DNA of 64,000 nucleotides from assembly GCA_020055645.1 (NCBI GenBank), contig CM034546.1, forward strand, positions 129,291,875-129,355,874, given 5' to 3'. This stretch comes from Tomocerus qinae. Its lineage: Eukaryota; Arthropoda; Collembola; Entomobryomorpha; Tomoceridae. The position numbers were made by a program, and so were the translations under genes. The notes beneath the pieces are model-generated. The model was not told the origin of the DNA and did not search any database. It was given only the letters and a program-made list of their open reading frames with translations. Positions 36,353 to 63,875 of the stretch are shown piece by piece (position 1 is the first letter of the stretch; each line of letters begins with the position of its first letter).

Positions 36353-36360
36353 ATACTAAA

Positions 36361-38167: not shown

Positions 38168-38691
38168 TCAGTCCTCGTGTGTCGATTCCGGAAAGATATT
38201 CGGTCCTTGAGGTCGATTCTCACGATGAGCTCCGGGTTCAACTACAGCTGCCGGAATTTCCTCAGTTACTGATGGTGGCGGAGAAGAGGATGACGCTGAA
38301 CTCAAAGAGGATGCGGAAGAACTCAAAGAAGATGGTGGAGAATTCTTCTCCGCTTTGTTGCAACCAGGATCAGAGCTAAATAATAAATAAAATATACTTT
38401 TTAAGTGACAATTCAAGAATTTCATTATGTTACTTTAAAAGTTTAATTGGTTTAATCAAATACAAATGATTTCAAAAAATTAAATTGTGTGGTTAAAAAT
38501 GGCACTTACAGGTTGTCGGAGATATTCGATTCTGTGGTGTTTGCTTCGGGAATGTCCAAATCGTCTGTTGATTCCAGGTGTATTATAACCATTCCTGGGT
38601 AGATATGTTGGGCTCTGCCTCTGCCTCGTGCTCTATACATCGACCTCGGTTGACGTTGAGGCACCGGCGACGGGATTCGTGGGTAGCTCAT
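38168..38691 (-). CDS. Truncated Piwi N-terminal tail gene, U1
   Basis: Two exons, 38691-38510 and 38375-38168, joined by GT-AG in phase 2, give 129 residues. The start MSYPRIPSPVPQRQPR aligns with MSYPPPTPEPMGRGR of the full gene. RARGRGRA keeps the RG-rich, Tudor-binding type motif; a Ser-rich stretch (SSLSSSASSLSSASSSS) and GAHRENRPQGPNIFPES match exon 2. A stop follows ESTHED, just before the KxGTSG start of the core N domain. So the product would be only the disordered Piwi tail. A TATA box lies 180 bp upstream. The frame is kept in all four copies with the same exon lengths, including the diverged one. A decoy for Piwi-tail partners is a hypothesis; it may also be a well-preserved pseudogene. 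Confidence 0.6.
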
Positions 38692-38841
38692 CTTAGTGGA
38701 CAAAAGATCTTCGGAGTTGGGTAGAAAGTGTAGAAGTCGGTCGATCAGAGTTCAGCGATTAAGTTCTTGAGTGGAGAGAGGCGGCAGCAGGTCCAGGAGA
38801 GTTTCCTTGAGGTCAGTTCTCTCTGAAGATCGGCAGAATTG

Positions 38842-38875
38842 TGACTTTCCAGGCTCACCAACCTCCCTTTTTATA
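38842..38875 (-). promoter_or_regulatory. TATA promoter of the piwi-tail gene, U1
   Basis: TATAAAAAGGGAGG (38875 downward) with TCACAATTC 33 bp on, the same as at the full piwi gene. Confidence 0.6.
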
Positions 38876-39041
38876 CGATTTTCCAGAACAAAGAATCTGC
38901 CATCTTTCCATTTGAAAACATGGAGAACAAAGAGAGTCAGACCACGAGTGCTGGAATTTTCTTGGTACCGAGTATGTGATATGCAGATATCTCTGTACCA
39001 CGCAGTCTGTTCGTGACTCAAATAGACAAAAGAAAAAATTT

Positions 39042-39475
39042 AAATTAGGATGAATAATATTCAAATTAGGATGAATAATATTCAAATTAGGACGAATAAT
39101 ATTCAAATGAGAATGAATAATATTCAAATTAGGACGAACGATTGTAAATGAAAATGAATAATATTCAAATTAGGATTAAATGAAAATTAGGCTGAGTAAT
39201 ATTCAAATTAGAATTAAATGTAAATTAGGCTGAGTATTATTCAAATTGGAAATGGCGAATATTCAAATTAGGACGAACGATTGTAAATGAAAATGAATAA
39301 TATTCAAATTAGGATTAAATGAAAATTAGGCTGAGTAATATTCAAATTAGGATTAAATGTAAATTAGGCTGAGTATTATTCAAATTGGAAATGGCGAATA
39401 TTCAAATTAGGACGAACGATTGTAAATTAGAATGAATAATATTCAAATGAGGATTAAAATGCAAATTATGCAAAT
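39042..39475. repeat. AT-rich minisatellite, U1
   Basis: Units based on ATTAGGATGAATAATATTCA, with a higher-order block of about 145 bp present twice (containing GGCTGAGTATTATTCAAATT). It is related to the array upstream of piwi, but units are less regular and not multiples of three. Confidence 0.8.
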
Positions 39476-39558
39476 ATATTCAAAATTGAGAATTAACATG
39501 AAATGGCAGTGTAAGGAGGAGATGAGGGAAGATGACTAAAACAAAGGAATTTGGAGAG

Positions 39559-39594
39559 TATTTAAGGGACCTAATTGAGAGCCTTAAAATCAGT
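39559..39594 (+). promoter_or_regulatory. Candidate plus-strand promoter, U1
   Basis: TATTTAAG at 39559 and TCAGT with A at 39592, 33 bp apart, just before the hairpin array; same spacing as at 7425-7458. Confidence 0.5.
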
Positions 39595-39633
39595 CTTAAG
39601 CTGAACTCTCTGAAGGATGGAGCCAAGACTAAA

Positions 39634-40163
39634 AGTCTCCCCTGGGGACTCTAAACTATTCTCCGAATTTCGTTAGTCTACTCAGTGGACTCTAAACTAT
39701 TCCCCGGTTACCTTAAGTCTACTCTTTGGACTCTAAACTATTCCCCGGTTACCTTAAGTCTATCAATTGGACTCTAAACTATTCCCCGGTTACCTTAAGT
39801 CTATCAATTGGACTCTAAACTATTTCCCGGTTTTTTATAGTCTACTCAGTGGACTCTAAACTATTCCCTGGTTTTCTTAAGTCTATTCATTGGACTCTAA
39901 ACTATTCCCCAATTATCTTCAGTCTATTCTTTGGACTCTAAACTCTAAACTATTCCCCGGTTTTCTTCAGTATCCCCAGTGGACTTCAAACTATTTCCCG
40001 GTTTTTTTAAGTCTACTCATTGGACTTTAAACTATTCCCCGGTTATTTTAAGTCTATCCATTGGACTCTAAACTATTCCCCGGTTTTTTTAAGTCTACTC
40101 ATTGGACTCTAAACTATTCTCCAATTTTCTGTAGTCTACCCTGTGGACTCTAATTCCCCGACC
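39634..40163 (+). repeat. 41-bp hairpin minisatellite, U1 (about 13 units)
   Basis: Thirteen or so units of AGTCTA-loop-TGGACT followed by CTCTAAACTATTCCCCGGTT. The first unit reads AGTCTCCCCTGGGGACT: A to C on one side of the stem is matched by T to G on the other, a paired change that keeps the stem. Loops vary freely (CTCAG, CTCTT, TCAAT, TTCAT, TCCAT). Confidence 0.8.
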
Positions 40164-40947
40164 TCCGAAAGAATGTCTTTAGAATTTTGGAAGACTAACT
40201 AACTAACTACTAGTAATTAGTAAACTAACACTCACTAAAGTAGGCTTCAACACTTCGGAAATTAATTACTAGAGCAATAAACGAAGTATGTGATGAAGTT
40301 TGGTGTTAGAATGTCAACCAAAATCCATTTTTCTGTTTCTTTACTTATGAAGTGCAAATGATTTTGCAATTTCTACGTTTCGTAGTAGGTTAAAATTGGA
40401 TAGAACCCAAACTGCATGTAAGTAATTTATTATTACATGTAAAAATTATTATATGCGGTATTTAATATAAGGCTAATGTTCGGCAACTCGGTTCGGTTTA
40501 ACATGCGTTATATATAGGATAATACATTAGAAACAGGAACTCCCCATAAAGACCAAATTTCTTGCAGTGAAGCCTTAATATGTTGAGACAAACTTCAATT
40601 TATAGGTGCTGGATAAATAATATAGCAATATGATTTTAATTTACATAAATGCATATAATATGTATTAAGGTAAGAGCTTCAATAACTACACATACATCAA
40701 AATAATTGCAACTGCTTACTTCGTAACAAAATAATAGTGATATGAATCAATATAATTCATCACCAAAAAGTTTCAATAGCTTGTCAAAGTAAACTAATAT
40801 TATCCTGTCATCAATCAAATATCAAACTAATAAACAAAAAATCGTTCCTTAAGGGACGATATATTATATGCTACTAAATAATTAAAGTTAATTAATACCA
40901 AAACAAAACACATATTTGCAGATGAAAACTTGCGCAAAACAAAGAGT

Positions 40948-43900
40948 CTATTGGAAACCCTTCGGTGGAGGTTCATGTCGACTTTCCCTATTTTGATTTT
41001 GTCTGGCCCGAGCGTGAGGAGGAATGTATTTATTCTGCGTCGTCGGTGGGGAACCAACCTCAGCCGTGACTGCACCCGGTCCAAAACTGTTACTACCAAG
41101 AGTAGAAGCTTGTGGCCCATTGGAAGTTCCCCAAGAACCGGCATTCCAGAAGGTAGGCGTGTTATGTGAGCTACTGTGGTGTGTTCGTCTGTTCTTGTAT
41201 ATGTTTGTGGAATTTGACCTGCTTGCTTCTTCAATCTTTAACTTCAACCATTTTAATTTTTCTGCATCTTCGGGGGATGTCTCCATTTGTTTTATAATCT
41301 CCGCATTTACCTTGCCAAAGATTTGGTCTGCACTCCATTGCCACTTATAACGCTTAGGAATATTTTTTAAAGCCTGTGATAAATATTTAAATGAACAGCT
41401 TTCAAGAAAACGAAAACGATGAAAAATATTTTATAGCATAGCATTAGGCAATACATTAAAACCGTTTCTTTCATCCGAGGAAAGATTATGCCGGGTCCAG
41501 TACGAGACAGCTTTTGGCGTTTCCTCTATCATAACAAAATAATATCCTTCTAACAAACGGAGAGAATTTTTGTCCTTTTCAGTCCAGGCGTGGTCTAAAT
41601 CCCAAAACGATCTAAAGAAATTTTCAATTTGGTCTTGATTTTTTCTAGGAGAACCGAGCAACGTTTGAATCAAGTCAATCCGAGCAGGAAATTTCTTGGG
41701 GTACATTGAATACTTCACGATTGAAGAAATGTATCGCCTGTTCCACATCATTATTCTGTTACGAAATAAACCAAACATGACTCTATTAGGACTAGGTAAT
41801 ACAAACGATAAAGATATATACGTATAAGACCTAAAAAGTCAAAAAGTGTAAAATAGCTTTACCCGGGTAAGTAGAAATGTTCCCATTTTGTGATTTATTT
41901 TACTATTAGAAGGAAAGCGATCTACACTCAATCGGTATAAATTTTCAGCCAATTCATAATTACAATGGTTGTGAGGAAGTAAAGATAAAAATATTTCTCC
42001 GTATCTGACCGCTTCTTCTGCACCACAGGTTCCCCGTTCGAAAGAATCTCTAAAAGTGACATAATAAACAATATAAGATGTGATAATCTAACATTTAAAA
42101 TTACCACAGTATATAATGTTATATTTATTTATTGTTACATTGCTAGAGTCTTGATATACTCAACTGTTTCCTCTTCTGACAAAATTTTTTTGATCCCAAT
42201 GTCTAGAGGAAAACTAATTATTTCTTTGAATCTGTCCCTTAGAGATAAAATTTCCGCAAGGCATTGGCATAAACCAGAAACACAGGCAGCATTAAAATTG
42301 GGAATTGTAATAGAAAGGTCCACCGCTTTGACAATCGCATTTAACTCTTCTTTAACTTTATTTGGGTCGGGGCGGGGTACATAAAATCTTTGCTGACGCC
42401 TCAAATATCGCAACCTGTGGTACAATATATAAATCCAGTTCGGATTCTTGTCATCTAAGCTAGTAATCTGAAATATTAAATAAAAACTTTAATAAAAAAC
42501 TGTACAAAACATTCGAGAGTAAAATTCATAAATTAAATGAAATGTACCTTTTTCAAATCATTGAGCGAATCGTCAGACTTTTTGCGATCTGGAATCTGTT
42601 CATTTAGTAACCATTTGGATAAATAAACCATTGCTTTTCCTTTTTCACTAAGGTTATGAAAACTGGAGTCGAAACTTTCGTAGTCTTTTTCGGTTGTAAT
42701 TCCTAGCTTAAGGTTAGCATGAATCCGCAGCAGGCGACAGATATAGGTAATACCTTCTGCATATTCTGCGGAAAAAAAATATTCTCCGACATAGTATTGT
42801 GTCACGTATTCAACCCAAGATATATTTTTTGTAGCAAGATCCACATTTCCCCATTCGCATATTATATGCAAGAATGCTTCAACTAAGGGTGATACAGCAC
42901 TTTGTAAAGTTCTTTTATCATTAACAGAGTAATTCTCTTTCAATTCTTCTTCTGTTTGTTGATGCGGCACCCCAGTCTTTTCATATAAGGACTCAGTCAT
43001 TAGGGTAAACATCTTCGGTGTCACTTCGTAACAACCTAGCCAATTTATGAAATAAGTCTCGCATCTTTTCAGTTCATCTAGAATATTTTCACCCTTAGAT
43101 ATTCTGCATGACGTTTCAAGCAGTTTTGCTGTTTCCCTTTCCCAATTGGTTTGCCGTGGCTGGTCTTCCGTAGAAACTGCTGAAGCAACATCTGCAATTA
43201 AAAAAACATTTAATCCAACGTATATAGACAAGCTAATAGTATTTGTAACGAAAATATAAATAAAATAATTTTAGATACATTATTTTTATATAAAGTTTAC
43301 CTTGAATAACACAAATAATATTGAGATCAAATGCAAAATATTATCTTTATTTAGCTACCTGGTTCATTGTTCCAACTGAATGAAACGTTCATTTTCATGG
43401 CATTTTCAATCATGCATTTCAACAGAGTCAGTTTCTCTTTTTCGGAAACTGGAACAGATCTGTCTTGTAATCTTTTCAAAATTTCTTCACGAGCAACACT
43501 TAGGTTAACAAAATCAGGCCACCTTTTATACTTCTTTTTCAATCGAGCCAGCGTCTAAAAATATATTCAGATGATCTAATGTTAGAATTTCACCTTTTAA
43601 GAATCGTATTATTTTATTCAATACTAACAGCAGCACAAGTTACAAGTAGTTCTAATAAATAAATCTTACTGCAAAATCGATGAGAAGAAACTTCTTGTCC
43701 ACCTCGCACCGAAAATCCATTTGGATCCATTGCAGAAGTGCATTATCCACATCATCTTTCAATAAAAAATAGCAACCATGCAAGAAGTGTAAAGAATATA
43801 TTTCATGGCTTTTCCAGTTTCCACCTTCTTTCCAAATTGCATTAAAAACATTGTCAAGCTTTTCCGTGTTATTTTCTCGATCTTCCAAAAGAGTTTGTAT

Positions 43901-43948
43901 TATGTCGATCGACTTACGATAATCCTTTTCATTTTGTTGAAGAAATAT
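40948..43948 (-). pseudogene. TPR-like gene, copy 2 (chimeric)
   Basis: Same exon layout as copy 1. Its 5' half (above 42734) is nearly identical to copy 1; its 3' half matches copy 4, for example EEASRSNSTNIYKNRR in the last exon where copy 1 has EEANKPSPTNRR. The switch lies inside the coding exon at YICRLLRIHANLKLGI, so the gene is a left-right hybrid. It has two extra bases near 41715 and one missing near 41687 in the GYYF-block exon, a net frame change, so the product would be broken unless these are sequence errors. The tail again has KYIPPHARARQNQ. Confidence 0.7.
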
Positions 43949-44112
43949 CTGTTAAAATAAAATACAAAATAAATAAATACAATAACGTTTACACCCTTCT
44001 TCATTTATTTATTAATGATTGAATTTCTAATTTTAGCACAAGAAAATCAGAATTTAAATACCCCAATTATCATAATCAATAATCATAATAGGTCGTTGTT
44101 TAAAATACTAAA

Positions 44113-44308
44113 CAAGCACGTATCCAGAGGGGGGGCCGGGGGGGGCCGGGGGGGTCCGGGCCCCCCCTAAGTATCCAGAAAAAGGCAATTTTTTTGTCAA
44201 AAAAGGTGAAAAATCCAAAAAATTTTCGCGCACCGCGCGAATATGACTTGAATTTATCAATATATTTTGGTGGACCCCCCCTAGGTCAAATTCCTGGATA
44301 CGTGCTTG
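44113..44308. mobile_element. hAT-like MITE in U2
   Basis: Same 196-bp element and same ATACTAAA target duplication as in U1; carried along by the amplification, not a new insertion. Confidence 0.88.
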
Positions 44309-45551
44309 ATACTAAAAGTAATAATATTTTACTTCGAAATAATGATTTTCATCAGGCAGCAATTTTGAACTCATTTTGTAGCACTTTTTTCGGAATCCTG
44401 AATTTTCAAAAGGTGAAAGGAAAAGAACTATTCCTGTCAGTCACCGCCGTCCTTTCCTTAGTCCCTAGTCCCTACTACTCTATTTACTTGTTTTCAACTT
44501 TCACTGAGTTTATTCATGTATAACGTAAATGAGATTTTCAAATACGTGATCCAACTTAAACTTCCCAACTTAATTTTGAAAAAATTTCTCCCGCGTGATA
44601 AAATACCAATCAACACAAACGATATCATTATTAACTTCCTTGTTAAGTAGCAGTTTGTACTTCTAGCTTTATCACTTCACCCCTGTAATTTAATATTACT
44701 TCACCAAATACAATTCAATGGACCCACCTGTTGATCACGTACAATTTGGTTGAGAATACTTGAGAGTGAGACGTTGACTTACTGGAGCTCCAACACTAAC
44801 GTTGCATGAAGTTTTGAGTCTCACTTTTTCGGTTGTAGTTGTAGGCTTGTTGGGTACTATTTTAATATGTATAAAATGTTGCTTTTTATTTTTTGTATTT
44901 AAGTTACAGTTGCTTGTAAATATGCATTAAGTCGATGCCCGTTTAAATGTCAAATAATATTAATTCCGGTTTGCGGTAAACTAAAATTGTTACTTAAAAT
45001 GAACTTGTAATAAATATGTAATTCAGAAAAATTTAAGGTACCGATATGGTGGGATGTACGGTTGATGATTTCTTACGGAGTATATTATATGCAGGGAAGA
45101 TTTCGGTATTCGTATTCATAAACTTTATTACTAGGTATAATTTAATTGGTCGGCTAACAAGGTGCAGCTGTGAAAGATGATACTACTCTATCAACAATTT
45201 ACAATTAAAAACTACACAACTAATTATGGCATGCAATGTATTGTGGAAGTATGCCAGAGGTAAAGATTAAAAATGCAATTGTGGAAGAAAAGAGCTGAAG
45301 ACCATAAATCTGCAATTTTATATCGAAGGAACAGAAAAAATTGTTTTTTTTTATTAAAATTAAAACCCAGATAAATCATCAAATTAAATTCATTCAGCAA
45401 CACATAACAATGTAAAATCGAAGGTAACAGAAAACCCTTAAATATCTTTCGTAATTCTACTCTACAATTACTAACTAAAAATATATACAAATTCAGGTCA
45501 GACACCTACAAATAAAATAGAAGATGACAATTCTGGATAGCTGCGGCGGGT

Positions 45552-46124
45552 TTATAAGAAGTGAAGATGGTGTGCGAGTGTCCGGCGTGCGTGTTTTCCG
45601 AGGAGGGAGAGTCCAGTCAAGAGTTACTTGTGTCCGTATTGACAGGAGAAGAGTGTGCGACAGTTCCGGACCAGTTGAAGTAGAGATTGCACATTTTGTA
45701 CGAGATAATCCGATCCGGAGAAAGGCCTTGGTTGTCGTGCAGAACGCTGAATGATGTCGAACTCGCCGTCCCTCGCCGAGCAGTCCAGGAAACTAGGAAA
45801 AAGTCGTATCTGCATCAACAACAGAAAAACAAGACATTATAGTCAATTCATATTCTGGATAAGGTAAGAGATTCGTGGATAATTACTTCTGATAAACAAT
45901 AAAAAATAAAAAAAATAATTAAAAAAAATTAATACAATTAAAAAATTAAAACAAATTGAATAATAATAAACTAATATAATAAACAAATAAACTAATAATA
46001 AACTAAAAACTTAAATAATAAAAAAATTAAAATAAATAATTACCAGAGTAGTAGGATTGTAGGTGGAAGAAGTAGGTGGAAGAAGTAGGTGGACGTTGAG
46101 CAGATCGTAGCCCCAATGCTGAAG
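45552..46124 (-). pseudogene. piwi remnants (exon 10 and exon 7 pieces), U2
   Basis: Same deleted piwi body as in U1, with no difference that I can see in the exon-like parts. Confidence 0.78.
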
Positions 46125-46648
46125 TCAGTCCTCGTGTGTCGATTCCGGAAAGATATTCGGTCCTTGAGGTCGATTCTCACGATGAGCTCCGGGTTCAACT
46201 ACAGCTGCCGGAATTTCCTCAGTTACTGATGGTGGCGGAGAAGAGGATGACGCTGAACTCAAAGAGGATGCGGAAGAACTCAAAGAAGATGGTGGAGAAT
46301 TCTTCTCCGCTTTGTTGCAACCAGGATCAGAGCTAAATAATAAATAAAATATACTTTTTAAGTGACAATTCAAGAATTTCATTATGTTACTTTAAAAGTT
46401 TAATTGGTTTAATCAAATACAAATGATTTCAAAAAATTAAATTGTGTGGTTAAAAATGGCACTTACAGGTTGTCGGAGATATTCGATTCTGTGGTGTTTG
46501 CTTCGGGAATGTCCAAATCGTCTGTTGATTCCAGGTGTATTATAACCATTCCTGGGTAGATATGTTGGGCTCTGCCTCTGCCTCGTGCTCTATACATCGA
46601 CCTCGGTTGACGTTGAGGCACCGGCGACGGGATTCGTGGGTAGCTCAT
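46125..46648 (-). CDS. Truncated Piwi N-terminal tail gene, U2
   Basis: Exons 46648-46467 and 46332-46125, 129 residues, identical in sequence to the U1 copy. If expressed it would add dosage, not a new product. The TATA box lies at 46832-46825. Confidence 0.6.
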
Positions 46649-46998
46649 CTTAGTGGACAAAAGATCTTCGGAGTTGGGTAGAAAGTGTAGAAGTCGGTCG
46701 ATCAGAGTTCAGCGATTAAGTTCTTGAGTGGAGAGAGGCGGCAGCAGGTCCAGGAGAGTTTCCTTGAGGTCAGTTCTCTCTGAAGATCGGCAGAATTGTG
46801 ACTTTCCAGGCTCACCAACCTCCCTTTTTATACGATTTTCCAGAACAAAGAATCTGCCATCTTTCCATTTGAAAACATGGAGAACAAAGAGAGTCAGACC
46901 ACGAGTGCTGGAATTTTCTTGGTACCGAGTATGTGATATGCAGATATCTCTGTACCACGCAGTCTGTTCGTGACTCAAATAGACAAAAGAAAAAAATT

Positions 46999-47430
46999 TA
47001 AATTAGGATGAATAATATTCAAATTAGGATGAATAATATTCAAATTAGGACGAATAATATTCAAATGAGAATGAATAATATTCAAATTAGGACGAACGAT
47101 TGTAAATGAAAATGAATAATATTCAAATTAGGATTAAATGAAAATTAGGCTGAGTAATATTCAAATTAGAATTAAATGTAAATTAGGCTGAGTATTATTC
47201 AAATTGGAAATGGCGAATATTCAAATTAGGACGAACGATTGTAAATGAAAATGAATAATATTCAAATTAGGATTAAATGAAAATTAGGCTGAGTAATATT
47301 CAAATTAGGATTAAATGTAAATTAGGCTGAGTATTATTCAAATTGGAAATGGCGAATATTCAAATTAGGACGAACGATTGTAAATTAGAATGAATAATAT
47401 TCAAATGAGGATTAAAAATGCAAATTATGC
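46999..47430. repeat. AT-rich minisatellite, U2
   Basis: Same array as in U1, with the 145-bp block twice and one A-run length change near 47415. Confidence 0.8.
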
Positions 47431-47592
47431 AAATATATTCAAAATTGAGAATTAACATGAAATGGCAGTGTAAGGAGGAGATGAGGGAAGATGACTAAAA
47501 CAAAGGAATTTGGAGAGTATTTAAGGGACCTAATTGAGAGCCTTAAAATCAGTCTTAAGCTGAACTCTCTGAAGGATGGAGCCAAGACTAAA

Positions 47593-48122
47593 AGTCTCCC
47601 CTGGGGACTCTAAACTATTCTCCGAATTTCGTTAGTCTACTCAGTGGACTCTAAACTATTCCCCGGTTACCTTAAGTCTACTCTTTGGACTCTAAACTAT
47701 TCCCCGGTTACCTTAAGTCTATCAATTGGACTCTAAACTATTCCCCGGTTACCTTAAGTCTATCAATTGGACTCTAAACTATTTCCCGGTTTTTTATAGT
47801 CTACTCAGTGGACTCTAAACTATTCCCTGGTTTTCTTAAGTCTATTCATTGGACTCTAAACTATTCCCCAATTATCTTCAGTCTATTCTTTGGACTCTAA
47901 ACTCTAAACTATTCCCCGGTTTTCTTCAGTATCCCCAGTGGACTTCAAACTATTTCCCGGTTTTTTTAAGTCTACTCATTGGACTTTAAACTATTCCCCG
48001 GTTATTTTAAGTCTATCCATTGGACTCTAAACTATTCCCCGGTTTTTTTAAGTCTACTCATTGGACTCTAAACTATTCTCCAATTTTCTGTAGTCTACCC
48101 TGTGGACTCTAATTCCCCGACC
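47593..48122 (+). repeat. 41-bp hairpin minisatellite, U2
   Basis: Same thirteen units as U1. The candidate plus-strand TATA and TCAGT lie just before it (47518 and 47549). Confidence 0.8.
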
Positions 48123-48906
48123 TCCGAAAGAATGTCTTTAGAATTTTGGAAGACTAACTAACTAACTACTAGTAATTAGTAAACTAACACTCACTAAAGT
48201 AGGCTTCAACACTTCGGAAATTAATTACTAGAGCAATAAACGAAGTATGTGATGAAGTTTGGTGTTAGAATGTCAACCAAAATCCATTTTTCTGTTTCTT
48301 TACTTATGAAGTGCAAATGATTTTGCAATTTCTACGTTTCGTAGTAGGTTAAAATTGGATAGAACCCAAACTGCATGTAAGTAATTTATTATTACATGTA
48401 AAAATTATTATATGCGGTATTTAATATAAGGCTAATGTTCGGCAACTCGGTTCGGTTTAACATGCGTTATATATAGGATAATACATTAGAAACAGGAACT
48501 CCCCATAAAGACCAAATTTCTTGCAGTGAAGCCTTAATATGTTGAGACAAACTTCAATTTATAGGTGCTGGATAAATAATATAGCAATATGATTTTAATT
48601 TACATAAATGCATATAATATGTATTAAGGTAAGAGCTTCAATAACTACACATACATCAAAATAATTGCAACTGCTTACTTCGTAACAAAATAATAGTGAT
48701 ATGAATCAATATAATTCATCACCAAAAAGTTTCAATAGCTTGTCAAAGTAAACTAATATTATCCTGTCATCAATCAAATATCAAACTAATAAACAAAAAA
48801 TCGTTCCTTAAGGGACGATATATTATATGCTACTAAATAATTAAAGTTAATTAATACCAAAACAAAACACATATTTGCAGATGAAAACTTGCGCAAAACA
48901 AAGAGT

Positions 48907-51900: not shown

Positions 51901-51907
51901 GAAATAT
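48907..51907 (-). pseudogene. TPR-like gene, copy 3 (chimeric)
   Basis: Chimera with the same left-right switch (about 50692) as copy 2. Two one-base changes in T-runs break the frame: one T fewer near 49603 (after LLGSPRKN) and one T more near 51046 (in RISKGENILDELK). Both are homopolymer changes, the kind that sequencing or assembly errors produce, so damage is uncertain. The remaining exons equal those of copy 2, and this copy keeps the AIQCTPRNFPAR reading that copy 2 has lost. Confidence 0.68.
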
Positions 51908-52071
51908 CTGTTAAAATAAAATACAAAATAAATAAATACAATAACGTTTACACCCTTCTTCATTTATTTATTAATGATTGAATTTCTAATTTTAGCACAA
52001 GAAAATCAGAATTTAAATACCCCAATTATCATAATCAATAATCATAATAGGTCGTTGTTTAAAATACTAAA

Positions 52072-52267
52072 CAAGCACGTATCCAGAGGGGGGGCCGGGG
52101 GGGGCCGGGGGGGTCCGGGCCCCCCCTAAGTATCCAGAAAAAGGCAATTTTTTTGTCAAAAAAGGTGAAAAATCCAAAAAATTTTCGCGCACCGCGCGAA
52201 TATGACTTGAATTTATCAATATATTTTGGTGGACCCCCCCTAGGTCAAATTCCTGGATACGTGCTTG
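52072..52267. mobile_element. hAT-like MITE in U3
   Basis: Same element and ATACTAAA duplication as in U1 and U2. Confidence 0.88.
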
Positions 52268-53510
52268 ATACTAAAAGTAATAATATTTTACTTCGAAATA
52301 ATGATTTTCATCAGGCAGCAATTTTGAACTCATTTTGTAGCACTTTTTTCGGAATCCTGAATTTTCAAAAGGTGAAAGGAAAAGAACTATTCCTGTCAGT
52401 CACCGCCGTCCTTTCCTTAGTCCCTAGTCCCTACTACTCTATTTACTTGTTTTCAACTTTCACTGAGTTTATTCATGTATAACGTAAATGAGATTTTCAA
52501 ATACGTGATCCAACTTAAACTTCCCAACTTAATTTTGAAAAAATTTCTCCCGCGTGATAAAATACCAATCAACACAAACGATATCATTATTAACTTCCTT
52601 GTTAAGTAGCAGTTTGTACTTCTAGCTTTATCACTTCACCCCTGTAATTTAATATTACTTCACCAAATACAATTCAATGGACCCACCTGTTGATCACGTA
52701 CAATTTGGTTGAGAATACTTGAGAGTGAGACGTTGACTTACTGGAGCTCCAACACTAACGTTGCATGAAGTTTTGAGTCTCACTTTTTCGGTTGTAGTTG
52801 TAGGCTTGTTGGGTACTATTTTAATATGTATAAAATGTTGCTTTTTATTTTTTGTATTTAAGTTACAGTTGCTTGTAAATATGCATTAAGTCGATGCCCG
52901 TTTAAATGTCAAATAATATTAATTCCGGTTTGCGGTAAACTAAAATTGTTACTTAAAATGAACTTGTAATAAATATGTAATTCAGAAAAATTTAAGGTAC
53001 CGATATGGTGGGATGTACGGTTGATGATTTCTTACGGAGTATATTATATGCAGGGAAGATTTCGGTATTCGTATTCATAAACTTTATTACTAGGTATAAT
53101 TTAATTGGTCGGCTAACAAGGTGCAGCTGTGAAAGATGATACTACTCTATCAACAATTTACAATTAAAAACTACACAACTAATTATGGCATGCAATGTAT
53201 TGTGGAAGTATGCCAGAGGTAAAGATTAAAAATGCAATTGTGGAAGAAAAGAGCTGAAGACCATAAATCTGCAATTTTATATCGAAGGAACAGAAAAAAT
53301 TGTTTTTTTTTATTAAAATTAAAACCCAGATAAATCATCAAATTAAATTCATTCAGCAACACATAACAATGTAAAATCGAAGGTAACAGAAAACCCTTAA
53401 ATATCTTTCGTAATTCTACTCTACAATTACTAACTAAAAATATATACAAATTCAGGTCAGACACCTACAAATAAAATAGAAGATGACAATTCTGGATAGC
53501 TGCGGCGGGT

Positions 53511-54083
53511 TTATAAGAAGTGAAGATGGTGTGCGAGTGTCCGGCGTGCGTGTTTTCCGAGGAGGGAGAGTCCAGTCAAGAGTTACTTGTGTCCGTATTG
53601 ACAGGAGAAGAGTGTGCGACAGTTCCGGACCAGTTGAAGTAGAGATTGCACATTTTGTACGAGATAATCCGATCCGGAGAAAGGCCTTGGTTGTCGTGCA
53701 GAACGCTGAATGATGTCGAACTCGCCGTCCCTCGCCGAGCAGTCCAGGAAACTAGGAAAAAGTCGTATCTGCATCAACAACAGAAAAACAAGACATTATA
53801 GTCAATTCATATTCTGGATAAGGTAAGAGATTCGTGGATAATTACTTCTGATAAACAATAAAAAATAAAAAAAATAATTAAAAAAAATTAATACAATTAA
53901 AAAATTAAAACAAATTGAATAATAATAAACTAATATAATAAACAAATAAACTAATAATAAACTAAAAACTTAAATAATAAAAAAATTAAAATAAATAATT
54001 ACCAGAGTAGTAGGATTGTAGGTGGAAGAAGTAGGTGGAAGAAGTAGGTGGACGTTGAGCAGATCGTAGCCCCAATGCTGAAG
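53511..54083 (-). pseudogene. piwi remnants (exon 10 and exon 7 pieces), U3
   Basis: Same deleted piwi body as in U1 and U2. Confidence 0.78.
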
Positions 54084-54606
54084 TCAGTCCTCGTGTGTCG
54101 ATTCCGGAAAGATATTCGGTCCTTGAGGTCGATTCTCACGATGAGCTCCGGGTTCAACTACAGCTGCCGGAATTTCCTCAGTTACTGATGGTGGCGGAGA
54201 AGAGGATGACGCTGAACTCAAAGAGGATGCGGAAGAACTCAAAGAAGATGGTGGAGAATTCTTCTCCGCTTTGTTGCAACCAGGATCAGAGCTAAATAAT
54301 AAATAAAATATACTTTTTAAGTGACAATTCAAGAATTTCATTATGTTACTTTAAAAGTTTAATTGGTTTAATCAAATACAAATGATTTCAAAAATTAAAT
54401 TGTGTGGTTAAAAATGGCACTTACAGGTTGTCGGAGATATTCGATTCTGTGGTGTTTGCTTCGGGAATGTCCAAATCGTCTGTTGATTCCAGGTGTATTA
54501 TAACCATTCCTGGGTAGATATGTTGGGCTCTGCCTCTGCCTCGTGCTCTATACATCGACCTCGGTTGACGTTGAGGCACCGGCGACGGGATTCGTGGGTA
54601 GCTCAT
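54084..54606 (-). CDS. Truncated Piwi N-terminal tail gene, U3
   Basis: Start ATG at 54606 and stop at 54084. The exons are as in U1; the intron is one base shorter in an A-run near 54392. The encoded 129 residues are the same as in U1 and U2. The TATA box lies at 54790-54783. Confidence 0.6.
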
Positions 54607-54956
54607 CTTAGTGGACAAAAGATCTTCGGAGTTGGGTAGAAAGTGTAGAAGTCGGTCGATCAGAGTTCAGCGATTAAGTTCTTGAGTGGAGAGAGGCGGC
54701 AGCAGGTCCAGGAGAGTTTCCTTGAGGTCAGTTCTCTCTGAAGATCGGCAGAATTGTGACTTTCCAGGCTCACCAACCTCCCTTTTTATACGATTTTCCA
54801 GAACAAAGAATCTGCCATCTTTCCATTTGAAAACATGGAGAACAAAGAGAGTCAGACCACGAGTGCTGGAATTTTCTTGGTACCGAGTATGTGATATGCA
54901 GATATCTCTGTACCACGCAGTCTGTTCGTGACTCAAATAGACAAAAGAAAAAAATT

Positions 54957-55378
54957 TAAATTAGGATGAATAATATTCAAATTAGGATGAATAATATTCA
55001 AATTAGGACGAATAATATTCAAATGAGAATGAATAATATTCAAATTAGGACGAACGATTGTAAATGAAAATGAATAATATTCAAATTAGGATTAAATGAA
55101 AATTAGGCTGAGTAATATTCAAATTAGGATTAAATGTAAATTAGGCTGAGTATTATTCAAATTGGAAATGGCGAATATTCAAATTAGGACGAACGATTGT
55201 AAATGAAAATGAATAATATTCAAATTAGGATTAAATGAAAATTAGGCTGAGTAATATTCAAATTAGGATTAAATGTAAATTAGGCTGAGTATTATTCAAA
55301 TTGGAAATGGCGAATATTCAAATTAGGACGAACGATTGTAAATTAGAATGAATAATATTCAAATGAGGATTAAAATGC
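54957..55378. repeat. AT-rich minisatellite, U3
   Basis: Same array as in U1, with minor substitutions (one AGAATTAAA reads AGGATTAAA). Confidence 0.8.
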
Positions 55379-55550
55379 AAATTATGCAAATATATTCAAA
55401 ATTGAGAATTAACATGAAATGGCAGTGTAAGGAGGAGATGAGGGAAGATGACTAAAACAAAGGAATTTGGAGAGTATTTAAGGGACCTAATTGAGAGCCT
55501 TAAAAATCAGTCTTAAGCTGAACTCTCTGAAGGATGGAGCCAAGACTAAA

Positions 55551-56080
55551 AGTCTCCCCTGGGGACTCTAAACTATTCTCCGAATTTCGTTAGTCTACTC
55601 AGTGGACTCTAAACTATTCCCCGGTTACCTTAAGTCTACTCTTTGGACTCTAAACTATTCCCCGGTTACCTTAAGTCTATCAATTGGACTCTAAACTATT
55701 CCCCGGTTACCTTAAGTCTATCAATTGGACTCTAAACTATTTCCCGGTTTTTTATAGTCTACTCAGTGGACTCTAAACTATTCCCTGGTTTTCTTAAGTC
55801 TATTCATTGGACTCTAAACTATTCCCCAATTATCTTCAGTCTATTCTTTGGACTCTAAACTCTAAACTATTCCCCGGTTTTCTTCAGTATCCCCAGTGGA
55901 CTTCAAACTATTTCCCGGTTTTTTTAAGTCTACTCATTGGACTTTAAACTATTCCCCGGTTATTTTAAGTCTATCCATTGGACTCTAAACTATTCCCCGG
56001 TTTTTTTAAGTCTACTCATTGGACTCTAAACTATTCTCCAATTTTCTGTAGTCTACCCTGTGGACTCTAATTCCCCGACC
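55551..56080 (+). repeat. 41-bp hairpin minisatellite, U3
   Basis: Same thirteen units. The plus-strand TATTTAAG is at 55475, with one extra A before TCAGT. Confidence 0.8.
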
Positions 56081-56864
56081 TCCGAAAGAATGTCTTTAGA
56101 ATTTTGGAAGACTAACTAACTAACTACTAGTAATTAGTAAACTAACACTCACTAAAGTAGGCTTCAACACTTCGGAAATTAATTACTAGAGCAATAAACG
56201 AAGTATGTGATGAAGTTTGGTGTTAGAATGTCAACCAAAATCCATTTTTCTGTTTCTTTACTTATGAAGTGTAAATGATTTTGCAATTTCTACGTTTCGT
56301 AGTAGGTTAAAATTGGATAGAACCCAAACTGCATGTAAGTAATTTATTATTACATGTAAAAATTATTATATGCGGTATTTAATATAAGGCTAATGTTCGG
56401 CAACTCGGTTCGGTTTAACATGCGTTATATATAGGATAATACATTAGAAACAGGAACTCCCCTTAAAGACCAAATTTCTTGCAGTGAAGCCTTAATATGT
56501 TGAGACAAACTTCAATTTATAGGTGCTGGATAAATAATATAGCAATATGATTTTAATTTACATAAATGCATATAATATGTATTAAGGTAAGAGCTTCAAT
56601 AACTACACATACATCAAAATAATTGCAACTGCTTACTTCGTAACAAAATAATAGTGATATGAATCAATATAATTCATCACCAAAAAGTTTCAATAGCTTG
56701 TCAAAGTAAACTAATATTATCCTGTCATCAATCAAATATCAAACTAATAAACAAAAAATCGTTCCTTAAGGGACGATATATTATATGCTACTAAATAATT
56801 AAAGTTAATTAATACCAAAACAAAACACATATTTGCAGATGAAAACTTGCGCAAAACAAAGAGT

Positions 56865-59800
56865 CTATTGGAAACCCTTCGGTGGAGGTTCATGTCGACT
56901 TTCCCTATTTTGATTTTGTCTGGCCCGAGCGTGAGGAGGAATGTATTTATTCTGCGTCGTCGGTGGGGAACCAACCTCAGCCGTGACTGCACCCGGTCCA
57001 AAACTGTTACTACCAAGAGTAGAAGCTTGTGGCCCATTGGAAGTTCCCCAAGAACCGGCATTCCAGAAGGTAGGCGTGTTATGTGAGCTACTGTGGTGTG
57101 TTCGTCTGTTCTTGTATATGTTTGTGGAATTTGACCTGCTTGCTTCTTCAATCTTTAACTTCAACCATTTTAATTTTTCTGCATCTTCGGGGGATGTCTC
57201 CATTTGTTTTATAATCTCCGCATTTACCTTGCCAAAGATTTGGTCTGCACTCCATTGCCACTTATAACGCTTAGGAATATTTTTTAAAGCCTGTGATAAA
57301 TATTTAAATGAACAGCTTTCAAGAAAACGAAAACGATGAAAAATATTTTATAGCATAGCATTAGGCAATACATTAAAACCGTTTCTTTCATCCGAGGAAA
57401 GATTATGCCGGGTCCAGTACGAGACAGCTTTTGGCGTTTCCTCTATCATAACAAAATAATATCCTTCTAACAAACGGAGAGAATTTTTGTCCTTTTCAGT
57501 CCAGGCGTGGTCTAAATCCCAAAACGATCTAAAGAAATTTTCAATTTGGTCTTGATTTTTTCTAGGAGAACCGAGCAACGTTTGAATCAAGTCAATCCGA
57601 GCAGGGAAATTTCTTGGGGTACATTGAATAGCACGATTGAAGAAATGTATCGCCTGTTCCACATCATTATTCTGTTACGAAATAAACCAAACATGACTCT
57701 ATTAGGACTAGGTAATACAAACGATAAAGATATATACGTATAAGACCTAAAAAGTCAAAAAGTGTAAAATAGCTTTACCCGGGTAAGTAGAAATGTTCCC
57801 ATTTTGTGATTTATTTTACTATTAGAAGGAAAGCGATCTACACTCAATCGGTATAAATTTTCAGCCAATTCATAATTACAATGGTTGTGAGGAAGTAAAG
57901 ATAAAAATATTTCTCCGTATCTGACCGCTTCTTCTGCACCACAGGTTCCCCGTTCGAAAGAATCTCTAAAAGTGACATAATAAACAATATAAGATGTGAT
58001 AATCTAACATTTAAAATTACCACAGTATATAATGTTATATTTATTTATTGTTACATTGCTAGAGTCTTGATATACTCAACTGTTTCCTCTTCTGACAAAA
58101 TTTTTTTGATCCCAATGTCTAGAGGAAAACTAATTATTTCTTTGAATCTGTCCCTTAGAGATAAAATTTCCGCAAGGCATTGGCATAAACCAGAAACACA
58201 GGCAGCATTAAAATTGGGAATTGTAGAAAGAAGAAAGGTCCACCGCTTTGACAATCGCATTTAACTCTTCTTTAACTTTATTTGGGTCGGGGCGGGGTAC
58301 ATAAAATCTTTGCTGACGCCTCAAATATCGCAACCTGTGGTACAATATATAAATCCAGTTCGGATTCTTGTCATCTAAGCTAGTAATCTGAAATATTAAA
58401 TAAAAACTTTAATAAAAAACTGTACAAAACATTCGAGAGTAAAATTCATAAATTAAATGAAATGTACCTTTTTCAAATCATTGAGCGAATCGTCAGACTT
58501 TTTGCGATCTGGAATCTGTTCATTTAGTAACCATTTGGATAAATAAACCATTGCTTTTCCTTTTTCACTAAGGTTTTGAAAACTGGAGTCGAAACTTTCG
58601 TAGTCTTTTTCGGTTGTAATTCCTAGCTTAAGGTTAGCATGAATCCGCAGCAGGCGACAGAGATAGCTAATCCCTTCTGCATATTCTAGGGAAAATAAAT
58701 TTTCTCCAACACAGTGTTTTGTCACGTATTCAACCCACGAAATATTTTTTGTAGCAAGATCCACATTTCCCCATGCGCATATAATATGCAAGAATGCTTC
58801 AACTAAGGGTGCAGTAGCACTTTGTAGTGAAGTTTTTACATCATAAACAGAGTAATTCTCTTTCAATTCTTCTTCCGTTTGTTGATGCGGCACAACAGTC
58901 CTTTCGTATAAGGACTCAGTCATTATGGTAAACATCTTCGGTGTCACTTCGTAACAACCTAGCCAATTTATGAAATAAGTCTCGCACCTTTCCAATTCAT
59001 CTAAAATGTTTTCAGCTTGACCCTTAGATATTCTGCATGACGTTTCAAGCAGTTTTGCTGTTTCCCTTTCCCAATTGGTTTGCCGTGGCTGACCTTCCGT
59101 AGAAACCGCGGAAGCAATAGCATATGCAATATTTAAAACAATTCATTTAATCAAAACAAACGTATATAGAAAAGTTAATGCTATTTGAAAACATACTTAG
59201 CCAAAAAAAATTGTAGATACAATATTTATGTAAAGTTTATCTTGAATAACACGAATAATAGTGCGATACAATGTAACAAATTATCTTCATTTAGTTACCT
59301 GATTCATTGTTCCAACTATTCATGGCATTTTCCATCTTCCTTTTCAACAGAGTCAGTCTCTCTTTTTCGGAATCTGGAACAGATCTGTCTTGTAATCTTT
59401 TCAAAATTTCTTCACGAGCAACACTTAAGTTAACATAACCATACCAACTTTTATACTTCTTATTCAATCGACGCAGCGTCTAAAAATCAATTCAAATGAT
59501 CTAATGTTAAAATTTCTCGTTTTTAGGTAAAAAATAATATAATAGTACGGCCATTGGGCCAATTATAATTACCATTTGGGTTTATAAAGCGTAGGACCAT
59601 TATTAGAATCGCATTATTTTATTTAATATTAACAGCACAAGTCACAAGTAAATAAAGCTTACAGCAAAATCGATGAGAAGAAACTTCTTGTCGACATCGC
59701 ACCGAAAATCCATTTGGATCCATTGCAGAAGTGCATTATCCACATCACCTTTCAATAAAAAATAGCAACCATGCAAGAAGTGTAAAGAATATATTTCATA

Positions 59801-59941
59801 GTTTTTCCAGTTTCCGCCTTCTTTCCAAATTGCATTAAAAACTTTGTCAAGCTTTTCCGTGTTGCTTTCTCGGTCTTCCAAAAGAGTTTGTATTTTGTCA
59901 ATCGTTTTACGATAATCCTTTTCATTTTGTTGAAGAAATAT
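56865..59941 (-). pseudogene. TPR-like gene, copy 4 (right ancestral 5' half)
   Basis: The 3' half (56865-58653) is nearly identical to copies 2 and 3. The 5' half is diverged, for example VTKHCVGENLFSLEYAEG where the others have VTQYYVGEYFFSAEYAEG, and the LKKKYKRW-type exon is shorter. It carries four extra bases near 58225, in the exon that reads SITIPNFNAAC in the other copies, which shifts the frame. All four TPR copies thus have a lesion, each at a different place, which suggests a working ancestor until recently, or errors in the sequence. Confidence 0.7.
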
Positions 59942-60115
59942 CTGTTAAAATGCAAAATATTTTAACGTTTTCACCCCGCTTTATTTATTTATTAATCATT
60001 GAATTTCTAATTTTATCACAACAAAATCAATATTTAAATACGCCAATCATCACTCTATAGTATAATCGTGTTGTTCGAGTTGTGCAGTGAAAAATTCCGT
60101 AGGTATATTTGTTTA

Positions 60116-60641
60116 GGCTGAATTTAGGCAGCGGTACTTTGTTACCACTGTCTCCGTGTTGCCGTTGGGGGTATTGGGGGTTAGCGGCAACAGCATAACA
60201 GCGGAGACAGTGGGAACAGCGGCGACACGCTACAACCACTAGCGGCAAAACTGACCAGCGGCAACAGAGACACATTAATCTGATTTTCTCTGTTGTCGCT
60301 ATTGCCCCTGAACCTAATATAAGCCAGTTCTCAGCTGTCTCTAACCTACCTGGCAAAAGTGGCAGAGGTATTTCGGGATTTGATACATATCGCTATTTTG
60401 CTCTTATGGAGCATTGAGCACAGAGCAGCAGTGCACCTGGCTTATACTAGACTTAGTGGCAACAGCGGCAACAGAGGAAATCAGATTAATGTGTCTTTGT
60501 TGCCGCTGGTCAGTGTTGCCGCTAGTGGTTCTAGCTGTGTCGCCGCTGTTGCCACTGTCTCCGCTGTTATTCTGTTGTCGCTAACCCCCATCGGCAACAG
60601 CGGAGACAGTGGCAACAAAGTACCGCTGCCTAAATTCAGCC
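60116..60641. mobile_element. Foldback MITE with long inverted repeats and 8-bp target duplication
   Basis: The 526-bp element has arms of about 210 bp (60116-60327 and 60437-60641) starting GGCTGAATTTAGGCAGCGG, around a loop of about 110 bp. It is flanked by perfect 8-bp repeats TTTGTTTA (60108-60115 and 60642-60649). The arms are full of GCGGCAACAG-type short repeats, giving a GC-rich island. No coding capacity is expected; an open frame at 60359-60673 is chance. The duplication length fits a hAT-type transposase. Confidence 0.88.
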
Positions 60642-60649
60642 TTTGTTTA

Positions 60650-61070
60650 TATCATCGTGTGTTAATGTTTTAAATCCCAACATGTCCGTATTCATAACAA
60701 AGCAGTTCATGCGTTCTGTATGCAAATATTTCCAGCTTTCGGTTCGATTAAGGTTCCTACTATTTCATGTTCGGGAAAATTTAAAATTTCGACATTTACA
60801 TTGTTGAAATTATGATACAAAGACAACACACTTGCCATACCTTCTCTGTCCCTAGATACGGACAGCTTTCTAAAACAAAAGTCCCTATACCTATCAATGT
60901 AAAATCTCTACCTCCGACGCCGATCCACCAAATGAGAAACCATGAAAAGTTCAATTAGAAAAAGCTATGAATCTCTGAAATACTTTCTTCTCATCGTCAA
61001 TCGTACAATATTGCCCCCGGAATACACACTAGCTTTATTTATAACAGGGCCTAGGTCCTGTGACCGGCTG
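60650..61070. other. Private sequence in the right copy
   Basis: About 420 bp with no match in U1-U3 that I can see and no coding frame; perhaps part of a larger insertion into which the foldback element went, or sequence lost from the other copies. Confidence 0.4.
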
Positions 61071-62370
61071 TAATCAATAATCATATATTTTGTTGTTTAA
61101 AATAGTAAAAGTAAAAATATTTTACTTGGAAATAATGATTTTCATCAGGCAGCAGTTTTGAGCTCATTTTGTGAAGCACTTTTTTCGGAATCCTGAATTT
61201 TCAAAAGGTGAAAGGAAAGGGAGAGAACTATTTCTGTCAGTCACCTGTCCTTAGTCTGTACTATTCTCTTTACTTGTTTTCATTTCAACTTTCATTGAGT
61301 TTATTAAAATTTGTTCGATTAAACAAACGCAACAACGTTTAAACGACAAACACTTATAACGTACATGAGATTTTCAACTGCGTGATACATCTTAAACTTC
61401 CCAACTTAATTTTGAAAAAATTTCTCCCGCTTGATAAAATACAATCAACACAAACGATTTCAATTATTAACTTCCTTGTTAAGCAGCACAGCAGCAGTTT
61501 GTACTTTGTACTTCTAGCTTTATCAATTCACCCCTGTAATGTAATATTATTTCACCAAATACAATTCCAATGGAACACCTGTTGATCACGTACAAACCAT
61601 TTGGTTGAGAATACTTGAGAATGAGACGTTGACTTACTGGAGTGGAGCTCCATAACGTTGCATGATGGTTTGAGTCTCACTTTTTCGGTTGTAGTTGTAG
61701 GCTTGTTGGGTACTATTTTATTATGTATAAAATGTTGCTTTTTATTTTATGTATTTAAGTTACAGTTGCTTGTAATATACATTAAATCGATGCCCGTTTA
61801 AATGTCAAATAATATTAATTCCGGTTTGCAGTAAACTAAAATTGTTACTTAAAATGAATTTGTAATAAATATGTAATTCAGAAAAATTTAAGGTGACGAT
61901 ATGGTGGGATGTGCGGTTGATGATTTCTTACGGAGTATATTATGCAGGAAAGATTTCGGTATTCGTACGTAAACATAACTAGGTATAATTTAATTGGTCG
62001 GCTAACAAGGTGCAGCTGTGAAAGATGATACTACTCTATCAACAATTTACAATTAAAAACTACACAACTAATTATGACATGCAATGCATTGTGGAAGTAT
62101 ATGCCAGCGGTAAAGATAAAATGCATCTGTGGAAGAAAAGAGCTGAAGACCATATATCTGCAATTTTATAATGAAGGAACTGAAAAATTGTTCTTTTTAT
62201 TAAAACTAAAACGCAAATAAATCATCAAATTAAATTCATTCTTTCAGCAATACATAACAATGTAAAATCGAAGGTAACAGGAAACCCTTAAATATCTTTC
62301 GTAATTCTACTCTACAATTCATAACAAAAACTATATACAAATTCAGGTCAGACACCCACAATAATCATTA

Positions 62371-62402
<32 letters not shown>

Positions 62403-62451
62403 CCTACAAATAAAATACAAGGTGATAATAATTCTGGATAGCTGCATGGGT

Positions 62452-63002
62452 TTACAAGAAGTGAAGATGGTGTGCGAGGTTCCGACGTGCGTGTTTTCCG
62501 AGGAGGGAGAGTCCAGTCAAGAAAGATTACTGTGTCCATATTTACAGAAGAGAGAAGGCGACAGTTCCGGACCAGTTGAAGTAGAGATTGCACATTTTGT
62601 ACGAGATAAACCGATCCAGAGAGAGGCCTTGGTTGTCGTGCAGAACGCTGAATGATGTCGAACTCGCCGTCCCTCGCCGAGCAGTCCAGGAAACCAGGAA
62701 AACGTCATATCTGCATCAGCAACAGAAAAACAAGAAATTATAGTCAATTCATATTCTGGATAAGGTAAGAGATTCGTGGATAATTACTTTTTGAAAAGCA
62801 ATAAAAATTTTTTAAAAAATCAAATAATTAAAAAAATAATACAATTAAAAAATTAAAACAAATTGAATAATAATAAAAAATAAAAAACTTAAATAATAAA
62901 AAAATTAAAATAAATAATTACCAGAGTAGTAGGATTGTAGGTGGAAGAAACAGGTGGAAGAAGTAGGTGGACGTTGAGCAGATCGTAGCCCCAATGCTGA
63001 AG
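62452..63002 (-). pseudogene. piwi remnants (exon 10 and exon 7 pieces), right copy
   Basis: Same deletion joints as in U1-U3 (exon 2 fused to exon 7 sequence, then exon 10), so the truncated piwi arose before the old duplication. The exon 10 frame is broken differently from the other copies. Confidence 0.78.
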
Positions 63003-63528
63003 TCAGTCCTCGTGTGTCGACTCCAGAAAGATATTCGGTCCCTGAGGTCGATTCTCACGATGAGCTCCGGGTTCAACTACAGCTGCAGGTATTTTCTCAG
63101 TTACTGATGGTGGCGGAGAAGAGGATGAGGCTGAACTCAAAGAGGATGCGGAAGAACTCAAAGAAGATGGCGGAGAACTCTTCTCCGCTTTGTTGCAACC
63201 AGGATCAGAGCTAAATAGTAATTATATTTTTTAAGTGACAATTCAAGAATTTGATTATATTACTGTAACTAATTGGTATTAACACATATTAAATCAAATA
63301 CGAATGATTTCAAAAATTAAATTGTATGGTTAAAAATGGCGCTTACAGGTTGTCAGAGATATTCGATTCGGTGGTGTTTGCTTCGGGAATGTCCAAATCG
63401 TCTCTTGGTCGTAGAGGTAGAGAAAACATTCCTGGGTAGACAGGTCGGGCTCTGCCTCGGGCTCGTGCTCTATACATCGACCTCGGTTGACGTTGAGGCA
63501 CCGGCGACGGGATTCGTGGGTAGCTCAT
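63003..63528 (-). CDS. Truncated Piwi N-terminal tail gene, right diverged copy
   Basis: Exons 63528-63347 and 63210-63003 have exactly the same lengths (182 and 208 nt) as the amplified copies and give 129 residues, even though the intron and flanks have diverged by substitutions and indels. Several residues differ (RARARGRARPVYPGMFSLPL against RARGRGRAQHIYPGMVIIHL), yet the frame, the RG motif, the Ser-rich part and the stop after ESTHED are kept. This contrast between coding and non-coding change is the best sign that the short frame is used. The TATA box is at 63713-63706. Confidence 0.62.
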
Positions 63529-63875
63529 CTTAGTGGAAAAAAGGTCTTCGGAGTTCGGGTAGAAATTGTAAAAGTCGGTCGATCAGGGTTCAGCGATCAA
63601 GTTCTCGAGTGGAGAGAGGCGGCAGCAGGTCCAGGAGAGTTTCCTTGAGGTCAGTTCTCTCTGAAGATCGGCAGAATTGTGACTTTCCAGGCTCACCAAC
63701 CTCCCTTTTTATACGATTTTCCAGAACAAAGAATCTGCCATTTTTCCATTTGAAAACATAGAATAAACAGACTCCGAGTACTGGAATTTTCTTGGTAACA
63801 ATCATGTGATATGCAGATATCTCTGTACCACGCAGTCTGTTCGTGAATAAAATATGAACACAAAAGAAAAAAATG

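Follow-up and report, generated by a model that had tools for sequence, protein, structure and literature searches.

Can a gene be maintained for the sake of a Piwi tail alone? The question is raised by a 64,000-nucleotide stretch (the window) of the genome of the springtail Tomocerus qinae (NCBI GenBank assembly GCA_020055645.1, contig CM034546.1, positions 129,291,875 to 129,355,874 of the forward strand), in which four copies, here A to D, of a short two-exon gene encode a peptide resembling the arginine-glycine (RG)-rich N-terminal tail of a Piwi protein. An earlier sequence-only reading had regarded them as an amplified gene that encodes only this tail and might compete for Tudor partners or for the arginine methylase. 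According to the analysis reported here, the copies are probably unprocessed, internally deleted duplicates of a Piwi gene, and their tail peptide, if made, would be either a by-product or a weakly constrained product. A by-product without selected function is judged more likely than a selected tail protein.

Tail Copies and Their Piwi Parentage

The two-exon intervals were spliced and translated for all four copies. Each yields, on the minus strand, an open reading frame of 129 codons ending in TGA, with an exon 1 of 182 nt, an exon 2 of 208 nt including the TGA, and an intron 1 of 133-136 nt bounded by a GTAAG(T/C) donor and a TTTAG acceptor; the four two-exon frames proposed earlier, with GT..AG splice sites, are confirmed. 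The following features were defined by translation and splice sites:

38510-38691, minus strand: copy A tail exon 1, with the ATG at 38691 and a (G/A)R cluster in codons 21-26
38168-38375, minus strand: copy A tail exon 2 frame, with the TGA at 38168-38170
46125-46648, minus strand: copy B tail gene, exons 46467-46648 and 46125-46332
54084-54606, minus strand: copy C tail gene, exons 54425-54606 and 54084-54291
63003-63528, minus strand: copy D, the diverged tail gene, exons 63347-63528 and 63003-63210

The coding sequences of copies A, B and C are identical and therefore count as one data point. Between them and copy D there are 28 nucleotide and 14 residue differences in the coding sequence, and not one indel. 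The predicted product is a serine-rich peptide of 129 residues, expected to be disordered; against Pfam at an E-value of 0.1 it matched no family and showed no in-frame PAZ domain.

A piece-by-piece match to a long Piwi paralogue at the other end of the window bears out the Piwi derivation of the tail exons:

3063-6540, minus strand: long Piwi paralogue, with a frame break near 5055-5070 (Pfam, PDB match and reading frames)

When the exons of this gene were joined, with part of the splice sites checked and one frame break noticed, the product contained Piwi_N, PAZ and PIWI domains that passed the Pfam cut-offs, together with an ArgoL1 match that fell short of its own, and it aligned with Siwi (PDB 5guh) over 803 query residues (E 6e-207) and also with Drosophila Piwi. 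The break, at about 5055-5070 between PAZ and the MID-equivalent region, places ...MKDLAQHL and HMPPNKK... in different frames and is either a real lesion or a sequencing error; the gene is otherwise open-looking. Tail exon 1 opens with the same 11 nucleotides as the long paralogue, positions 63479-63307 of copy D match 6512-6342 at 66% with intron 1 at the same place, and the end of the tail in copy A (38234-38181) matches 6143-6090. Homology further extends upstream of the tail genes over 6605-7941 of the long paralogue.

This upstream homology includes a 41-bp minisatellite, found upstream of the long paralogue (7499-7974) and of tail copies A-C (39633-40153, 47592-48112 and 55550-56070); the equivalent place of copy D falls beyond the window. 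The minisatellite was apparently carried along when the promoter region was duplicated.

Piwi Relics Past the Stop Codon

The earlier statement that the frame stops just before the Piwi core domains is correct for the peptide but misleads as to the gene, in which a PIWI fragment and the last Piwi exon follow the stop:

38100-38171, minus strand: copy A PIWI-domain remnant, joined in another frame where the deletion occurred (78% match to 4046-3974 in the long paralogue, E 3e-10)
62965-63006, minus strand: copy D PIWI-domain remnant after the tail (86% to 4046-4005 of the long paralogue)
37588-37893, minus strand: copy A relic, made up of the last Piwi exon and the final stretch of the intron before it, with a frameshift close to the exon end (85% to 3375-3063)
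45545-45850, minus strand: copy B relic last Piwi exon (self-comparison and tblastn)
53504-53809, minus strand: copy C relic last Piwi exon (self-comparison and tblastn)
62448-62751, minus strand: copy D relic of the last Piwi exon, interrupted by stop codons (84% to 3375-3066)

The PIWI remnant was aligned to the long paralogue in copies A and D, and copies B and C have no column differing from A across this stretch. With the joined long Piwi protein as tblastn query, the last-exon relic was found in all four copies, the matches covering residues 82-106 (the tail end) and 794-881 (the relic); at E-values up to 1, nothing was found between them. Collinear Piwi remnants thus flank a deletion on both sides (aligned in A and D; last exon and tail end in 4/4), and about 2 kb of the gene, from just before the N domain to inside the PIWI domain, are gone between the tail and the first remnant. 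A predicted second intron separates the PIWI remnant from the relic last exon. Because the tail was joined out of frame to the PIWI-exon fragment, the TGA lies at the deletion junction; since the junction and the sequence following it are the same in A and D, the deletion is older than the split between these copies. What remains of the PIWI domain forms no in-frame domain: all four copies have a broken last exon, and A and D have a fragment out of frame with the tail. A design to encode only the tail is not supported; the tail-only frame results from an internal deletion, which left an out-of-frame PIWI remnant and a last-exon relic behind.

Other products and origins were considered. Retrotransposition of a processed copy was ruled out by the retention of intron 1 in 4/4 copies, and an internal GTGAGA in exon 2 was rejected, on inspection by eye, as a donor for splicing to the last exon, as the product runs into a stop. 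It is very unlikely that the copies serve to make an exon-2-skipping isoform, in which exon 1 would be joined to the relic last exon to give the tail plus a PIWI C terminus (124 residues in A, 116 in D). The join is in frame and open in both A and D, and the relic last exon, read in its dead ancestral frame, has a ratio of nonsynonymous to synonymous divergence (dN/dS) of 0.30. This ratio comes from only 6 changes (P 0.14-0.21), however, and such small counts mean little; moreover, the C-terminal ends differ between A and D, and such a fragment would be unable to fold as a PIWI domain.

Co-amplification With Gene X

By self-comparison and four-unit alignment, the tail gene is part of a head-to-tail repeat unit of 7.96 kb that also holds a second gene, gene X. 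The four copies of an "amplified gene" are accordingly present, yet what was amplified is a unit that carries gene X along:

32936-40893: repeat unit A, with gene X diverged in its left part (four-unit alignment)
40894-48852: repeat unit B (four-unit alignment)
48853-56810: repeat unit C (four-unit alignment)
56811-64000: repeat unit D, right part diverged, reaching the window edge (four-unit alignment)
40951-43951, minus strand: gene X of unit B, TPR-like, 5' end not found (co-amplified with the tail gene)

From 34780 onward in A, units A-C differ at 10 alignment columns, 6 of which are single-base gaps. Owing to this near-identity, the window offers only two independent tail sequences, and the identity of A-C was rejected as evidence of conservation, as it reflects recent duplication. 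The diverged parts are the left half of gene X in unit A and unit D rightward from about 58660, an arrangement that two older units, already diverged, may have produced through unequal crossing-over within gene X. A rather unlikely possibility, compatible with the other readings, is that the near-identity is in part an effect of assembly (haplotypes or long-read misassembly), in which case the amplification would be less extensive than it seems. So few differing columns, most of them single-base gaps, would fit such an effect, whereas distinct differences between copies, for example in gene X of B, C and D, and the head-to-tail run of the units argue for real duplication.

Gene X has weak TPR matches as its only similarity, with no clear named relative, and a low-complexity C terminus with the motif KYIPPHARARQ. 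In the assembly, the gene switches frame inside an exon in C and D, in B (compared with D) and in A near 33670; some of these breaks may be sequencing errors.

Two further elements lie in the array. Units A-C carry an insertion, some 190 bp long, whose terminal inverted repeats measure 12 bp, GCACGTATCCAG and CTGGATACGTGC (36160-36349, also from 44116 and 52075), which looks like a small DNA transposon; each repeat occurs 3 times in the window and is absent from unit D. Unit D contains a 528-bp palindrome (60115-60642), about 81% self-complementary, with no other copy of at least 150 bp in the window.

Conserved Core Promoter

The retention of a TATA promoter, noted earlier, holds upstream of all four tail copies, and also of the long paralogue:

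38783-38902 (approximate), minus strand: copy A conserved core-promoter block, TATA at 38875 and TCACA at 38844 (A equals D at 120/120 columns, A equals the long paralogue at 113/120)

The block, whose interval was converted from alignment columns 120-239, lies around TATAAAAAGG, and its equivalent in the long paralogue lies at about 6621-6740. The 40-column blocks flanking it match the long paralogue at 16-33 of 40 columns. In all five loci (the four tail copies and the long paralogue) the first base of TATA stands 31 nt from TCACA, which we take to be the initiator. Promoter and leader are kept among A, D and the long paralogue far better than the coding tails, through either purifying selection or gene conversion. 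Nothing else in the region points as strongly to function as this block, and it suggests that all five loci can be transcribed. Given an intact TATA-type promoter and splice sites, the tail copies are probably transcribed. The stop codon of A and D precedes the predicted exon-2 end by 81 nt; in some animals, a stop so placed would expose the transcript to nonsense-mediated decay.

RG Motif and Direction of Change

The RG motif reported for the tail is present as a (G/A)R cluster, with 3 sites within codons 21-28 in A (B and C being identical) and 4 in D, compared with 5 (G/A)R sites, 4 of them clustered, in the first exon of the long paralogue. The motif is thus kept in kind, but another part of the tail is better kept: 17 of the 19 exon-1 differences between A and D fall in codons 23-42, in and just after the motif. 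With the long paralogue as outgroup, D keeps the outgroup base at 16/19 exon-1 differences and A at 3/19, whereas in the other five regions together the outgroup matches A at 32 positions and D at 22 (Fisher P 0.0013 against exon 1; the counts omit 17 positions where the outgroup matches neither, 4 outgroup gaps and an exon-2 sub-part row of 0 vs 3). On the simplest reading, most of the exon-1 change occurred in the amplified lineage, although gene conversion of D by sequence like that of the long paralogue would yield the same counts. Nor does the amplification support a tail-only design: it is shared with gene X, identical copies carry no selection signal, and the amplified copies have one (G/A)R site fewer than D.

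Divergence and Selection

Between A and D, differences amount to 19/182 (10.4%) in exon 1, 19/128 (14.8%) in intron 1, 9/208 (4.3%) in exon 2, 2/90 (2.2%) in the 90 nt after the stop and 24/306 in the relic last exon. The claim that introns and flanks changed while exons were kept stands for exon lengths, the stop and the lack of indels, but not for substitutions, as the post-stop stretch (2.2%) has diverged less than exon 1; conservation therefore does not follow the reading frame.

Several results nonetheless weigh against a by-product. By the Nei-Gojobori method, the tail has 11.8 silent and 16.2 replacement changes between A and D (dS 0.133, dN 0.058), giving a dN/dS of 0.44 with a codon-bootstrap interval of 0.20-0.99; by exon, the ratio is 0.71 in exon 1 and low, 0.16, in exon 2. 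In the other five frames it is 1.98, 0.74, 1.23, 0.94 and 0.64, so that the coding frame is the lowest of six. In a neutrality simulation in which 28 changes were placed at random in the tail frame, a stop-free frame survived in 33-41% of trials (30% when loss of the start was counted too). As many silent changes as observed arose in 2-5% of random trials and in 2-6% of the stop-free ones, and at most 14 residue changes in 1.8% of the random trials left open (0.018). The frame is, besides, open without an indel in both independent sequences, A-C and D. Over the 396 aligned bases of the relic exon and post-stop remnant, 3 indel events are seen. At that rate the 390 coding bases should hold about 3 as well, and the chance of their holding none, as observed, is about 0.05. 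Without a 12-codon patch of clustered changes, the exclusion of which was chosen after the data had been seen, the tail dN/dS falls to 0.25, with nonsynonymous changes at 7/260 vs 26/396 in the relic (P 0.03) and P 0.0015 against all non-coding sequence. Gene X, in the part where A and D are diverged, has a similar dN/dS, 0.37 over 296 aligned codons (0.24, 2.02 and 0.26 in its three exons). A comparison of the left part of gene X between A and B (0.65 over 309 codons) was discarded, as one of the three exon pairs was out of frame (stops in both, 0.99). Taken together, the dN/dS, frame and indel results favour some coding constraint on the tail.

With all codons included, the picture is different. 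Nonsynonymous sites of the tail (16/288) evolved no more slowly than the untranslated relic (26/396, P 0.63) and not clearly more slowly than all non-coding sequence (82/1031, P 0.20), whereas silent sites (12/96) tend to be faster than the relic (P 0.057); the low dN/dS is therefore due in part to fast silent sites. The dN/dS comparison of the diverged with the amplified copies, suggested by the sequence-only reading, consequently has a divided outcome: the ratio is 0.44, with an interval just under 1, and yet replacement sites are no slower than an untranslated relic. Selection on the tail frame is ambiguous.

The chief rival to a by-product is a selected tail peptide, which would act as a soluble, core-less N-terminal region that is constantly exposed to the PRMT5-methylosome, methylated without loading of PIWI-interacting RNA (piRNA), and able to compete with loaded Piwi/Aub for Tudor proteins or the methylosome. 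The rival is possible but doubtful. It agrees with a frame, splice sites and promoter motif that are intact in 4/4 copies, with a dN/dS that is the best of six frames, and with a (G/A)R cluster kept in kind. It is further helped by a study in Drosophila cells, which found strong methylation of an isolated Aub 1-105 fragment but very weak modification of the full-length protein, and in which an Aub 1-220 fragment was sufficient for binding Csul (PMC8249470). The methylation of free Aub 1-105 makes a decoy mechanistically reasonable. Opposed to this are the ratio of 0.71 in exon 1, which bears the RG motif and holds the clustered changes of the amplified lineage, the nonsynonymous sites that are no slower than the relic, and an amplification shared with gene X. 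A more specific version, in which a tail expressed from the retained Piwi promoter would counterfeit a "loaded Piwi" signal to Tudor proteins and thereby tune or poison piRNA amplification, is considered unlikely.

Proposed Origin

Under the preferred account of internally deleted duplicates, a Piwi gene would have been duplicated along with its upstream region, and the duplicate would then have lost its middle; the tail copies still have the promoter and 5' leader, exon 1 with intron 1, and the beginning of exon 2. The deleted duplicate may next have been duplicated together with gene X, the two resulting units diverging by roughly 10%. A recent unequal crossing-over inside gene X could finally have produced three almost identical 7.96-kb units, and a tail peptide of 129 residues may be made from the copies that are transcribed.

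Comparison With Known Systems

Among the matches listed in a search of the open-licence literature on truncated, tail-only or decoy Piwi paralogues, covering titles and the beginnings of abstracts, no tail-only Piwi gene was named; for springtails and Collembola, the open-licence matches listed contained nothing on the species. Pattern searches gave 14 matches to the tail in viral contigs, and 13 in viral and 94 in prokaryote genome contigs to the last Piwi exon; none was confirmed as a relative, as expected for an animal gene. The PIWIL2 isoforms PL2L60A and PL2L80A presumably keep the C-terminal part of the protein. Like the present peptide, they are shortened products of a PIWI gene, but they are tied to alternative promoter regions of PIWIL2 (PMC4226551), whereas the present copies derive from a deleted duplicate.

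With the Siwi and Aub-Piwi clade, to which the long paralogue is tied by its alignment to Siwi, the tail copies share the start-exon layout of the long paralogue, a (G/A)R-rich tail and the last exon; unlike members of that clade, they lack PAZ, MID and PIWI in frame. Aub 1-105 in S2 cells is likewise a free Piwi-type tail of similar length with a (G/A)R motif, but it is an artificial construct (PMC8249470), whereas the present tail is a predicted gene product. The pea aphid is reported to have eight complete piwi copies, three further incomplete and frame-broken piwi-like genes described as likely pseudogenes, and a third ago3 gene that is incomplete and sits close beside a complete copy (PMC3230593). 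The window resembles that case in its lineage-specific piwi expansion with incomplete copies; the present copies differ in having an open 129-codon tail, a conserved promoter, a common internal deletion and a tandem array.

Other Features of the Window

Outside the Piwi loci and the repeat array, four results were recorded:

8125-11063: a tandem pair of methyltransferase genes sharing 87% identity over 1 kb, of which a single scanned piece matched Methyltransf_11; we take them to resemble juvenile-hormone acid methyltransferase
14685-15710: an open frame of 342 codons in which Q/P/V and CQTYNCQ motifs recur; no Pfam family matched it at an E-value of 0.1
26385-26699: a nuclear-receptor zinc finger (zf-C4, E 3e-25), which, like the methyltransferase pair and Siwi as the nearest solved relative, points to an arthropod
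RNA genes: no Rfam match at gathering scores and no match in a tRNA search

Implications

If the ordinary account is right, the locus illustrates how the loss of its middle can make a gene look purpose-built for a tail, and why copies that are nearly identical must not be treated as independent evidence of conservation. If the tail is made, T. qinae would offer a natural version of the free-tail experiment performed in fly cells, and it would become possible to test directly, in an animal, how loaded and unloaded PIWI proteins are distinguished by Tudor proteins.

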